From a virus: 29,673 nucleotides of DNA. The notes below the pieces were generated by a model. The model saw only the letters and a list, made by a program, of their open reading frames with translations, made no database searches and was not told where the DNA came from. The stretch lies in the IMG/VR virus record IMGVR_UViG_3300025771_000126, positions 1-29,673 of that record; one strand, written 5' to 3'. Made by a program: the position numbers and the translations under genes. Shown here piece after piece: positions 16,252-20,681 of the stretch (positions are counted from its first letter, which is position 1; each line of letters starts with the position of its first letter).

Positions 16252-16463
16252 TCAGGCGTTCACTCATGTCCAAGCTCTCGGACACCGACCGCCAGAAGGT
16301 GGAGAAGAGCGAGAACAGCACCATCGTGCTCCCTGCCCTGCGCACCCACTCCTTCGCCATGCACCTGACCATCCTCGAGGCAGTCATGGTGTGGCAGATC
16401 ATCAAGGGCGGCAACGTGCGCTTCGACTTTGTTGAATTCGCAAACCTATTTGAAACGCCATGA
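16248..16463 (+). CDS. small early protein, unknown
   Basis: This 71-residue protein starts in an ATGA overlap. It has a basic start (MIRRSLMSKLSDTDRQKVEK), then PALRTHSFAMHLTILEAVMV and a short acidic-aromatic end. It is soluble, with no recognised motif. A second in-frame ATG (MSKLSD) six codons downstream could also be the start. The overlap with the upstream stop favours the first. Confidence 0.6.
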   Translation: MIRRSLMSKLSDTDRQKVEKSENSTIVLPALRTHSFAMHLTILEAVMVWQIIKGGNVRFDFVEFANLFETP

Positions 16464-16576
16464 TACAGCCGATCCTTTTAACCATCGCCCTGTGCTCTGT
16501 GATCTTCTTCTTCTGCAAGGAGGTCAGAAGCACCATCACCGAAATCAATCAACACCTAAACAACAACAACCAATGA
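16460..16576 (+). CDS. small single-span membrane peptide
   Basis: A 38-residue frame overlaps the preceding stop as ATGA and the following start as ATGA. Residues about 3-19 form one hydrophobic segment (QPILLTIALCSVIFFFC), followed by a charged helix and an Asn-rich end. Both overlaps and the clear membrane segment support a real gene. Possible roles include superinfection immunity or membrane anchoring of early complexes. Nothing in the sequence decides between them. Confidence 0.55.
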   Translation: MIQPILLTIALCSVIFFFCKEVRSTITEINQHLNNNNQ

Positions 16577-17385
16577 ACACACAGACCAGTTTCACCGACT
16601 ACTTGAACAGCTTTACAGGTAAGTCTAAAGAGAAGCCAACGACGCAAGACCATCAAGTCGTGGCGCAGGTAGTTCAGACCAAAGACTACCAACAATTCAA
16701 CAAGGCGGCAGGCAACCGCGACGTGATACAGCTCCACGTTGAACGACTCAAGACATCAATGGAGGAGGAGTACCTCATGAGCCCCATCATCGTGAACGAG
16801 AAGATGGAGATCATCGACGGGCAGCACCGCTTCGAGGCAGCGCGACAGCTTGACCTTCCGATTCGATTCATAAAGGTCAGAGGCTACGCCTTGAGCCAGA
16901 TGCAGCAGATGAACGCTAACCAAAAAGACTGGGGAATCATGGATCACATACAAGCTCACGCAGAAATGGGGAATGAAAATTTCAAGCAGTTGATAATGTT
17001 TATTGAAAAACATCGGAAAGAGAAGCCTTTAAGGGTAATTCTTCACGCTTATGGAATGAATGGAAACACAAGAAAAACACTTCTTGAAAGCGGAAACTAT
17101 AAGTATGACATAAAGAAAGAGGCTCAAGCTGAGAGACTGTTGGACGCGATAAATGAAATACAGCCCTACTACAAAGGCGCGCACAGGATTGCTTTCATTG
17201 GTGCTATAAGGAAACTAATGAAGCATGACGTCTTTAATTTAGCCCTCTTTATTGACAAGCTGAGCAAGTTTAGCAGCATGATGGTGGACTGTACAACCGT
17301 AGACAACTACATCGACTTGATCGAGCACATCTACAACTACAAGAGCCGCAACAAGGTCTCCTTTAAATACCTCTCCGATGATTGA
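16573..17385 (+). CDS. ParB-like (ParB/Srx-fold) protein
   Basis: This 270-residue protein has a ParB-like N-terminal domain at about 45-115: NRDVIQLHVERLKTSMEEEY, then SPIIVNEKMEIIDGQHRFEA (key D-G-Q-H-R at 82-86) and the MNANQKDW segment. ParB-like folds can bind CTP or act as nucleases, and many phages carry them in early regions. The C-terminal half is helical and includes KEKPLRVILHAYGMNGNTRK, with no clear helix-turn-helix. The DNA from about 16930 to 17290 is AT-richer than both ends of the gene, suggesting that the C-terminal domain was exchanged. The start is in an ATGA overlap, and the stop overlaps the next gene by 8 nt. Confidence 0.78.
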   Translation: MNTQTSFTDYLNSFTGKSKEKPTTQDHQVVAQVVQTKDYQQFNKAAGNRDVIQLHVERLKTSMEEEYLMSPIIVNEKMEIIDGQHRFEAARQLDLPIRFIKVRGYALSQMQQMNANQKDWGIMDHIQAHAEMGNENFKQLIMFIEKHRKEKPLRVILHAYGMNGNTRKTLLESGNYKYDIKKEAQAERLLDAINEIQPYYKGAHRIAFIGAIRKLMKHDVFNLALFIDKLSKFSSMMVDCTTVDNYIDLIEHIYNYKSRNKVSFKYLSDD

Positions 17386-17815
17386 AATCAGACAAAAAGC
17401 CGAGCGCAAGTTCTGCAACATCGGAGGCCTCTGGTACATCTTCCGGAAGCTCCTCTTCGCCCGCGAGGTGGAGGTGCTGATCTACTTCCCCGACGATATG
17501 AAGAACGCGCACATGAGCGATATCAGAGCGAGAAAATACAAGCCCATCCTCGGCTTTAAGGGGATGGGAAGGAGTCAGGACATCTGCTTCAGGGCAACCT
17601 CCGAGGGGCGCATCTTCGAAACAGCCAAAACCTACGAAGACGACCGAGGGCGATTGTTGGGCGTGCAGGAGCTCAAGGCGAGCGCATCGAATGAAATCCC
17701 CGTCAAGGCGTACATGATGAGCCGCAGGCGGGGGGAGTGGCTTCCGATCCTCCCGCTGCACCCATACCCGAGCAATTCTTTCCGGTATCGCGTGGCGATC
17801 AGGCGCGTCAGGTAG
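17378..17815 (+). CDS. early operon end gene, unknown
   Basis: This 145-residue, very basic protein starts MIEIRQKAERKFCNIGGLWY and contains a strand-rich core (REVEVLIYFPDDMKNAHMSD, then KPILGFKGMGRSQDICFRAT). It ends in an Arg-rich stretch (RYRVAIRRVR). The charge suggests nucleic acid binding. I do not recognise a family. It is the last gene before the leader RNA; the -7 box of that RNA begins at the base after its TAG stop. Confidence 0.7.
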   Translation: MIEIRQKAERKFCNIGGLWYIFRKLLFAREVEVLIYFPDDMKNAHMSDIRARKYKPILGFKGMGRSQDICFRATSEGRIFETAKTYEDDRGRLLGVQELKASASNEIPVKAYMMSRRRGEWLPILPLHPYPSNSFRYRVAIRRVR

Positions 17816-17823
17816 TATCTTTG
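17816..17823 (+). promoter_or_regulatory. consensus -7 box driving the leader RNA
   Basis: TATCTTTG matches the Bacteroidota -7 consensus TAnnTTTG exactly. It lies directly behind the stop codon of the previous gene and about 70 nt upstream of the terminator hairpin. No -33 TTTG is visible. Confidence 0.6.
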
Positions 17824-17915
17824 AGGTGTTGGATGCCGCACACATCCATGACGAAAACAAGATTGAACCCATTGGGGGGAGGCGTGCGGGCCGAACCCTG
17901 ATGGGTTTTTTATTT
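17824..17915 (+). ncRNA. candidate structured leader RNA with attenuator
   Basis: This intergenic stretch of about 90 nt begins behind a consensus -7 box and ends in an intrinsic terminator 8 nt before the next start codon. A hairpin GGATG/CATCC (17831-17835 with 17843-17847) has the loop CCGCACA. Six loop bases (17836-17841) are complementary to GTGCGG at 17884-17889, which would form a pseudoknot. AACCCAT (17866-17872) is a perfect complement of ATGGGTT (17901-17907), which is also the 3' arm of the terminator, so two pairings compete. I do not recognise a known riboswitch or RNA family. It could be a ligand- or protein-sensing leader for the DUF6291 replication operon, or a free small RNA. 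Confidence 0.55.
17893..17915 (+). terminator. intrinsic terminator / attenuator before DUF6291 gene
   Basis: The stem AACCC/GGGTT (17894-17898 with 17903-17907) has the loop TGAT. The 3' arm merges into a T-rich tract to 17915. The stem is short (5 bp), which fits a conditional terminator. Confidence 0.65.
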
Positions 17916-17922
17916 GAATGAA

Positions 17923-18564
17923 ATGGCACAAGGAAAAAAGTCCTTTGTCCTGTACGCTGACCAGAGGGCGGTGTTCGACAAGATGGACGATGAACAAGCA
18001 GGCAAGCTGATCAAGCACATCTTCAGCTTCGTGAATGACGAAGACCCGGAGGGGGACTTCATCACCGAGCTCGGATTCGCTGCGATCAAGGCGCAACTCA
18101 AGCGCGACCTCGAAAAATGGAGGGAAACCAGAGAGAAGCGAGTGCAAGCAGGAGCAAAGGGAGGGAAGCAAAAGCAAGCAAATGCTACCAAAAGCAAGCA
18201 AAGCCAAGCAAACGTAGCTGTAAATGGTAATGTAAATGTCAATGTAAATGAGAATGTAAAGAAGAAAAACCCCCCTTACCCCCCAAAGGGGGAAGAGGTT
18301 GAGGTGATCCTTCCATTCCAAACAGATGTTTTTACAAGCCAGTGGCAGCTCTGGAAGCAGTATCGCAAACAGCAGCACCGCTTCACATACAAATCCCCCG
18401 CCTCGGAGCAGGCAGCACTCACCGAGCTCGGCAAGATGTCGGGCAGTCAGGAGAAGAAAGCCATCGCCATCCTCCACCATACGATGGCGCACGGGTGGAG
18501 GGGCTTCGTCGAACCAAAGCCAGAGGAGAACAGCACCAAAATGATTAATGTTGCAGATATATGA
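17923..18564 (+). CDS. DUF6291-type phage replication protein
   Basis: This 213-residue protein has the DUF6291 N-terminal pattern: KKSFVLYADQRAVFDKMDDE, QAGKLIKHIFSFVNDEDPEG, then IKAQLKRDLEKWRETREKR. A low-complexity linker (about residues 82-118, with KSKQSQAN and NVNVNVNENV repeats) leads to a C-terminal domain with HRFTYKSPASEQAALTEL and HHTMAHGWRGF. In Bacteroidota phages this protein takes the place of a replication initiator, comparable in layout to lambda O, but its biochemistry is unknown to me. I chose the ATG at 17923 (MAQGKKSF), which lies 8 nt after the terminator. The DNA of the linker contains direct repeats that could act as iterons. Confidence 0.75.
   Translation: MAQGKKSFVLYADQRAVFDKMDDEQAGKLIKHIFSFVNDEDPEGDFITELGFAAIKAQLKRDLEKWRETREKRVQAGAKGGKQKQANATKSKQSQANVAVNGNVNVNVNENVKKKNPPYPPKGEEVEVILPFQTDVFTSQWQLWKQYRKQQHRFTYKSPASEQAALTELGKMSGSQEKKAIAILHHTMAHGWRGFVEPKPEENSTKMINVADI
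18170..18262 (+). repeat. direct repeats inside the DUF6291 gene (possible iterons)
   Basis: AAAAGCAAGCAAA occurs at 18170-18182 and again at 18190-18202, exactly 20 nt apart. A partial third copy (CCAAGCAAA) begins at 18204. An AT-rich run of AATGTAAATG-type units follows (about 18219-18260), and then a CCCCC-AAA-GGGGG hairpin (18280-18292). The repeats also encode a low-complexity linker, so they may reflect protein rather than DNA function. Confidence 0.5.
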
Positions 18565-19897: not shown

Positions 19898-20256
19898 AAC
19901 AAGATGAAAGCCGCCTTCAGATGGCCTGCGTGAAATGGTTTCGGATGCAATACCCGCAGCACCGCAAGCTTCTCTTCTCCGTCCCAAACGGAGGCTTTCG
20001 CAACATCGCCACAGCGAAGCGCATGAAGCTCGAGGGCGTGGTGGCAGGAGTATCCGACCTCATCCTCCTGATCCCCTCGCACGACTTCCACGGCCTGTGC
20101 ATCGAGATGAAGACACCCAAAGGCAGGCAGACCGACCATCAGAAGGCATGGCAGACCCATGTCGAGCAGCATGGCTATATTTACGCCCTCGCCAGATCGG
20201 TCGAGGAGTTTCAGAACATTGTCAGCGATTACCTAAACCAACACACGAAAGCATGA
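19894..20256 (+). CDS. VRR-NUC domain nuclease
   Basis: This 120-residue protein consists of a stand-alone VRR-NUC domain, a branch of the PD-(D/E)xK nuclease fold. Visible features are LLFSVPNGGFRN (27-38), GVVAGVSDLILLIP (48-61) with Asp55, and the catalytic CIEMKTPKGRQTDHQKAW with Glu71 and Lys73. Phage VRR-NUC proteins are thought to cut branched DNA such as flaps or junctions, helping replication or packaging. It is coupled by ATGA overlaps to the methyltransferase and to the DnaA-like gene. Confidence 0.88.
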   Translation: MKQDESRLQMACVKWFRMQYPQHRKLLFSVPNGGFRNIATAKRMKLEGVVAGVSDLILLIPSHDFHGLCIEMKTPKGRQTDHQKAWQTHVEQHGYIYALARSVEEFQNIVSDYLNQHTKA

Positions 20257-20681
20257 ACATCAGCGAGAAATTCACAGACAAGCAGCTCTTTCACTTCGCC
20301 CTCCGGGTCAAGTGCGAGCAGGATGACATCCCGCCCGAGGAGGTGGTGATGAAGACGCGCAAGAGGCACATCGTCGAGGCGCGGATGATGATCAGCAAGC
20401 TCCTCCTGAAGGAAGGGCTCACGCTCTCCGAGATCGCCCGCTTCCTGAACAAAGACCACGCGACCATCATCCACTACCGCAATTTGCACGACGACCTGAT
20501 GAAGACGGACGCGAAGTACAAGTTCAAGTTCGACAAGCTCGTCAGCGCGTTCAGGTATGAGATGGTCACAGGCGACGCGCAGCAATGGCGCGACTTCGTG
20601 GACAAGGCGAACGAGGCATACGACGAGCACGGGTGGGGCGTGGAGATGCTCCAGTTCCTCTACGAGATGAAGAAGGCATAA
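20253..20681 (+). CDS. DnaA domain IV-like DNA-binding protein without AAA+ domain
   Basis: This 142-residue protein contains the DnaA C-terminal DNA-binding signature. It has a basic helix KRHIVEARMMISKLLLKEGL (38-57), a helix-turn-helix LSEIARFLNKDHATIIHYRN (58-77) with the DnaA hallmark DH-x-T-(I/V)-x-H. No Walker A or AAA+ region is present, so it can bind DnaA boxes but not hydrolyse ATP. It could recruit host DnaA to the phage origin or compete with it at oriC. A single perfect DnaA box exists at 5281. The remaining C-terminal part is helical. It is coupled to the nuclease gene by an ATGA overlap. Confidence 0.82.
   Translation: MNISEKFTDKQLFHFALRVKCEQDDIPPEEVVMKTRKRHIVEARMMISKLLLKEGLTLSEIARFLNKDHATIIHYRNLHDDLMKTDAKYKFKFDKLVSAFRYEMVTGDAQQWRDFVDKANEAYDEHGWGVEMLQFLYEMKKA

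Follow-up and report, generated by a model that had tools for sequence, protein, structure and literature searches.

The window analysed here, the whole of the 29.7-kb virus record IMGVR_UViG_3300025771_000126, carries a structured RNA leader ahead of a DUF6291 gene, in which the apical loop of an intrinsic terminator is complementary to the loop of a promoter-proximal hairpin. The structure of this leader and its membership of a family are well supported by sequence comparison: the same architecture is found with quite different letters in dozens of Bacteroidota phages, and we therefore regard it as a real RNA family. The promoter box, hairpin 1, the kissing interaction, the terminator stem, its internal loop and the genomic position are shown by comparison between members, and attenuation is the regulatory mechanism that we infer. 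On balance, we lean towards the view that the leader belongs to a large unnamed family of promoter-proximal, attenuator-type gates with which the replication operons of Bacteroidota phages begin.

The leader in the window and its closest relatives

The leader lies between a 145-aa ORF and the DUF6291 gene. The features of the locus are as follows.

17378..17815, plus strand: 145-aa ORF ending at the promoter box; conserved neighbour of the leader
17816..17823, plus strand: -7 promoter box of Bacteroidota type, TATCTTTG, recognised from the sequence; abuts the stop codon of the 145-aa ORF
17830..17848, plus strand: hairpin 1, TGGATG (17830-17835) / CATCCA (17843-17848), from the fold
17836-17842, plus strand: hairpin 1 loop, CCGCACA, from the fold
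17836..17841, plus strand: kissing strand K1, CCGCAC, pairing with 17884-17889; wholesale covariation between relatives
17848..17901, plus strand: possible leader ORF of 17 codons (MTKTRLNPLGGGVRAEP), its start codon abutting hairpin 1
17849..17865, plus strand: single-stranded linker of 17 nt from hairpin 1 to the terminator, from the fold and the linker length in relatives
17866..17877, plus strand: 5' arm of the terminator lower stem, AACCCATTGGGG; 12/12 pairs with 17896-17907
17878..17880, plus strand: terminator internal loop, GGA opposite GAA (17893-17895); conserved as GGA/GAA in group I
17881..17892, plus strand: terminator apical hairpin, GGC-GTGCGG-GCC, from the fold; its loop is kissing strand K1'
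17884..17889, plus strand: kissing strand K1', GTGCGG, complementary to K1; wholesale covariation between relatives
17896-17907, plus strand: 3' arm of the terminator lower stem, CCCTGATGGGTT, pairing with 17866-17877
17906-17911, plus strand: terminator U-run of six U, from the sequence; retained in all relatives
17923..18564, plus strand: DUF6291 gene, the first after the leader (PF19808, E=3e-22; PHROG 6451, primosomal protein, E=2e-9)

A sequence-only reading of this DNA had placed a -7 box directly after a stop codon, and this proved correct, the stop codon being that of the 145-aa ORF, for which neither Pfam nor PHROG gave a match. No clear -33 element was found upstream of the box, where the region matches no consensus. 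The transcript would start at approximately 17829-17830, at the base of hairpin 1. This hairpin had been described as GGATG/CATCC around the loop CCGCACA; the loop is as described and the stem is longer. The proposed pseudoknot between CCGCAC and GTGCGG also holds, and the pairing is retained through compensatory change in relatives with unrelated leader sequence. As GTGCGG sits in the apical loop of the terminator itself, closed by GGC/GCC above the GGA/GAA internal loop, the pseudoknot is a kissing loop. Compensatory changes in both the loop pairing and the stems had been named as the evidence to look for, and both were found across homologous leaders; this comparison strongly supports a structured, pseudoknotted leader before the replication operon.

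The terminator took a different form from the one first suggested. AACCCAT (17866-17872) and ATGGGTT (17901-17907) do pair but, rather than competing with the terminator, they form the base of its stem, and the 12-bp stem with its six U has the makeup of an intrinsic (Rho-independent) terminator that is kept in relatives. The 5-bp AACCC/GGGTT hairpin (17894-17907) previously taken as the terminator is about 10 kcal/mol worse (-25.8 vs -36.1) and is not conserved. A switch based on the duplicated GAACCC was likewise discarded: the second copy is absent from three relatives (L003, L004 and L005), and both copies lie in one long stem. For this GAACCC alternative we found no mutually exclusive antiterminator conserved by covariation. 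The window leader has a folding z-score of -3.06 against shuffles, with an energy that beats 198 of 200 of them. The stretch of about 90 nt after the box, described as encoding no gene, does contain an ATG at 17848 that opens the 17-codon frame ending inside the terminator stem.

The terminator lies 15 nt ahead of the start codon of DUF6291, the product of which is a probable replication or primosome protein. The leader had been called an attenuator or riboswitch; with its own promoter box and a terminator this close to the start codon, attenuator-type control is plausible, but no evidence for a small-molecule ligand was found. Upstream of the leader the window encodes a ParB-like protein (16429-17385) and downstream a protein carrying the C-terminal DNA-binding domain of DnaA (19935-20681), neighbours that are consistent with a replication module.

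The -7 box is identical and in the same position in the relatives L002-L007, which also have the upstream ORF in common; in four relatives with differing leaders the ORF is retained at 77-99% protein identity. The entire leader is a different sequence in L003, L004 and L005-L007, with the same parts and fold. The kissing words, CCGCAC/GTGCGG in the window, are CCTCTCACA/TGTGAGAGG, CTCTCCAC/GTGGAGAG and CCTTCGAC/GTCGAAGG in these three, respectively. Hairpin 1 has other stem sequences and an unchanged shape in each, all 12 pairs of the terminator lower stem are present in L003, L004 and L005 despite unrelated sequence, and the apical closing stems read GUGCG/CGCAC, GCACG/CGUGC and GCGCG/CGUGC. 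A motif GGAG...UGAA/UGAC is common to the leaders of the close relatives. The first downstream gene is a small ORF in L003, an organiser-like protein other than DUF6291 in L004 and a weak DUF6291 in L005. Leader and first gene therefore move together as a cassette. The 8-nt pair CCTTCGAC/GTCGAAGG recurs in the otherwise unrelated leaders L005 (4535-4650), L238 and L275.

Searches built on this locus returned little else. Used as bait, the 145-aa protein found no relatives beyond six contigs and none among GenBank phages, and leader DNA similarity in GenBank phages was restricted to a meaningless 36-nt Lactobacillus phage match. A scan of viral contigs for the promoter with TGT and GGAGG gave 91 stretches, and there, as in a scan for GGAGGYRCGA, the true members were the known relatives only.

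A wider family before phage replication operons

Using DUF6291 as bait, we collected 133 upstream regions from viral contigs, GenBank phages and cellular genomes. A first descriptor required a hairpin with a U-run and, at its apex, a word of at least 6 nt that is reverse-complementary to the loop sequence of a hairpin further upstream. It matched 47 of the 133 upstream regions, compared with none of the downstream regions, none of the shuffled sequences and one antisense sequence. A second, looser descriptor anchored on the -7 box matched 41/134, compared with 0 downstream, 2 shuffled and 7 antisense; read in antisense, such a structure is still complementary to itself. When run on 2.27 Mb of unrelated viral DNA, the second descriptor gave five matches at a score of at least 56, a score reached by approximately 30 distinct leaders in about 0.09 Mb. 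We place independent weight on the controls of the two descriptor scans and on the unrelated viral DNA, since a self/non-self permutation test is partly circular, its members having been chosen for self-pairing. In the other groups, a TANNTTTG box stands 3-14 nt ahead of hairpin 1.

The family has members in cultured phages:

AJ842011, 33676-33722: Flavobacterium phage 11b
MN812240, 12681-12731: Flavobacterium phage tooticki
MT497067 (elemoC): Flavobacterium phage elemo
KC821633, 3143-3097, minus strand: Cellulophaga phage phi13:2
NC_062748: Olleya phage Harreka

One family-like copy was found in the complete genomes of 11b and tooticki and in the 50 kb of phi13:2 that were scanned, in each case directly before the replication operon. 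Other descriptor matches of similar score occur in these three and in the window, and a single one in each has the family layout, meaning a promoter box adjoining hairpin 1, a short linker and a position before the replication operon. The contig L158 possibly has two copies, at 2634 and 5704, with the kissing words CGTCTCAC and CGGGCAGG and before different genes.

The first genes after the leader across the family are DUF6291, a helicase, a DnaD-like replisome organiser and small ORFs. In a pattern scan, the 11b subfamily precedes a helicase in L290 and L300 (ResIII/DEAD in L290), a DnaD-like organiser in L294 (a call made by eye, the first 70 residues having no Pfam match) and DUF6291 elsewhere. 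As the first gene varies, the RNA is tied to the operon and not to one protein. In many members the terminator is 7-26 nt ahead of the start codon, a spacing that leaves no room for a second promoter.

DUF6291 is rare in cellular genomes (4/395 Bacteroidota). We considered whether the RNA is confined to viruses. It is missing from 24 cellular loci, but one of the cellular DUF6291 loci, L286 on a small contig of a Bacteroidota assembly, carries a member, and the confinement is not absolute. Five loci (L206, L209, L162, L165 and L212) have longer leaders outside our descriptors, in which a promoter box and large hairpins precede DUF6291, and these may be further structural variants.

Covariation, loop words and leader reading frames

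Within subfamily IIb (11 aligned sequences), 15 of 38 named pairs have changed on both sides, with a covariation score of 0.332 compared with 0.125 for shuffled and at most 0.09 for slid controls. The contributors are hairpin 1, K1 (4 of 8 pairs), the lower and upper stems, and K2 (5 of 7 pairs), a second pseudoknot in IIb between the linker and the loop of the inner hairpin. RNAalifold, given no structure, predicts the same nested helices. The IIIa alignment, also of 11 sequences, has seven pairs changed on both sides, four of 7 in hairpin 1 and three of 8 in the lower stem, and a score of 0.249 vs 0.082 shuffled. All 11 IIIa members have an identical kissing word, CGGGCAGG, and an identical core, AAGUAAAG-CCUGCCCG-CUUGAAA. 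Group I has GGA/GAA as its terminator internal loop, whereas group II and IIIa, which is part of group III, have AGUA/GAA; the AGUA/GAA loop is loop-E-like in sequence and may share that fold. A purine-rich motif of approximately AAAGAWATT in the linker between hairpin 1 and the terminator is common to groups III and IV (L150, L157, L170, L267 and L281).

The differences between near-identical IIb phages fall mainly in the kissing words, which change faster than synonymous sites, as judged from a handful of pairs. Between L247 and L252, 12 of 16 positions of K2/K2' have changed, compared with 4/88 in the rest of the RNA and 5/48 at 4-fold sites of two downstream genes, and the K2 pairing is largely retained (7 vs 5 contiguous pairs). 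Between L251 and L265, hairpin 1, K1 and K1' differ at 9 of 25 positions, the rest of the RNA at 0/89 and 4-fold sites at 6/46. Changes at paired sites are not independent counts, and only a few close pairs were compared. This turnover above the neutral expectation points to diversifying selection or, alternatively, to mutation by template switching, and the divergence of the words hints at self/non-self specificity. Fast turnover is absent from IIIa, where the word is fixed.

Reading frames in the leader follow the groups. Each of the four group I leaders has an ATG immediately adjoining hairpin 1, which opens 17 codons in the window and L004 and three in L003 and L005. In 16 of 16 group II leaders, the ATG adjoining K2 opens a frame that is free of stops across the whole terminator, the other two frames containing stops; for L008 our script took an earlier ATG, and from the homologous one the frame is open just as it is in L010. 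The group II ORF has about 30 codons and either shares the frame of the small gene that follows or overlaps the start of DUF6291 (L247:705-930, L221, L249, L147 and 12 others). No ATG is present in the linkers of groups III and IV, which rules out leader-peptide attenuation as the general mechanism. A ribosome-based switch may therefore be an elaboration of particular subgroups.

Readings of the leader and comparison with known systems

Under the attenuator-type reading, the transcript would begin at hairpin 1 and reach the intrinsic terminator, whose apical loop would kiss the loop of hairpin 1. Some of the polymerases would terminate at the U-run, yielding a discrete transcript of approximately 80 nt. 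Because the terminator abuts the start codon, the replication genes can be reached from the leader promoter only by readthrough, which would be the one visible route into them from there. The kissing contact and the purine internal loop may set how well the terminator hairpin closes; kissing may tune closure as the hairpin emerges, or may form a platform for a ribosome, a protein or a second RNA. The balance could be shifted by a ribosome on the leader ORF (groups I-II), by a phage or host protein or by a second copy of the RNA. Kissing leaves both terminator arms unoccupied, so there is no visible antiterminator that would exclude the stem through shared sequence. We also considered steric frustration, in which the linker would be too short for kissing and the full terminator to form together; the ratio of linker reach to stack length is mostly 0.67-1.36 across members, and such roughly equal lengths speak neither for nor against it. 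Against a gate, transcripts of same-strand genes further upstream could also run into the operon.

A rather unlikely alternative is that the leader serves as a stand-alone small RNA acting in trans. The terminated RNA would accumulate, its ends both sealed by hairpins, and K1/K1' would kiss nascent leaders of the same phage to cause termination, or would bind host targets; by analogy with the CI RNA of satellite phage P4, which acts through antisense pairing, the function could be control of copy number or superinfection. The IIb kissing words that outpace synonymous sites between near-identical phages bear the mark of specificity turnover, but this turnover comes from few close pairs with non-independent paired-site counts, the word is invariant in the 11 IIIa members, and intramolecular pairing should beat pairing in trans. 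We are doubtful, somewhat more so, of the idea that the loop words form a self-recognition code by which the terminated RNA would silence, or else release, a replication operon only in phages that carry a matching word.

It is improbable that the folded leader resembles put RNA in binding RNA polymerase and enabling it to pass terminators throughout the early operon. Its place near the promoter at the 5' end of that operon, its independence of the downstream gene and its compact two-hairpin form with a conserved loop-E/GA motif would all suit such a role, but the leader ends in an intrinsic terminator of its own, unlike a put element. A small-molecule riboswitch with a terminator as its expression platform is very unlikely. 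The pseudoknotted 5' leader that ends in a terminator and the invariant IIIa core would suit it; against it, apart from the internal loop, hardly any loop nucleotides are conserved across group I, the kissing words, often the site of ligand pockets, are free to change, and no Rfam riboswitch matched. We give almost no credence to an ordinary terminator of the upstream gene combined with chance complementarity. A U-run hairpin about 90 nt after a stop codon would fit, but the comparative data contradict it, as the kissing pairing and hairpin 1 covary in many lineages and the architecture is enriched over controls.

The sequence-only reading had recognised no known family, and Rfam 15 agrees: at the gathering score there were no matches in the window or in 12 related loci, and permissive E-values also gave nothing above threshold. 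The best Rfam match of L247 (803-873) and L303 (7220-7269) is TEG147 (RF03535), at 30.3 and 26.3 bits (16.2 in the window) against a gathering score of 56.1. TEG147 shares with L247 and L303 a terminator hairpin with an AGUA/GAA internal loop and a U-run, but its 60-nt model has neither a second hairpin nor a kissing partner, and the likeness to this Staphylococcus terminator hairpin is probably convergent. In the open literature searched, nothing matched kissing terminators, and no openly available paper names DUF6291.

Structured leaders and attenuators are already known; our searches of Rfam and of the open literature turned up no widespread family in which the terminator hairpin is itself the kissing partner. 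In Bacteroidota phages the family occurs once per genome, at the replication operon (11b, tooticki and the 50 kb of phi13:2). If it acts as a gate, it would offer a handle on the timing of DNA replication in abundant, little-understood phages. If the words confer specificity, they would represent a new route to phage-phage exclusion, an RNA-coded system of replication incompatibility or superinfection control.

Control of a replication-initiator gene by a terminator, or by a pseudoknot between a loop and a downstream sequence, is familiar from the attenuators of pT181 repC and pIP501 repR and from the leader pseudoknot of IncI-alpha repZ, systems that depend on a counter-transcribed antisense RNA. 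The HK022 put RNA, the analogue for the antitermination reading, is like the leader in position only. In phage Gifsy-1, IsrK comes from a single promoter in two isoforms, one short and terminated, the other made by readthrough (PMC4825925); the short form activates translation in trans, and the passages on IsrK in that source describe no kissing terminator. The P4 CI RNA, according to PMC4825925, is a short RNA from the leader of the phage replication operon, where premature termination controls the replication genes; it arises by processing of the primary transcript, in which it is flanked by its pairing partners seqA and seqC. P4 CI resembles the present leader in having complementary segments within the same leader at a replication operon; the present leader differs in that its partner segment is the loop of a canonical intrinsic terminator and in that the RNA comes from its own promoter.
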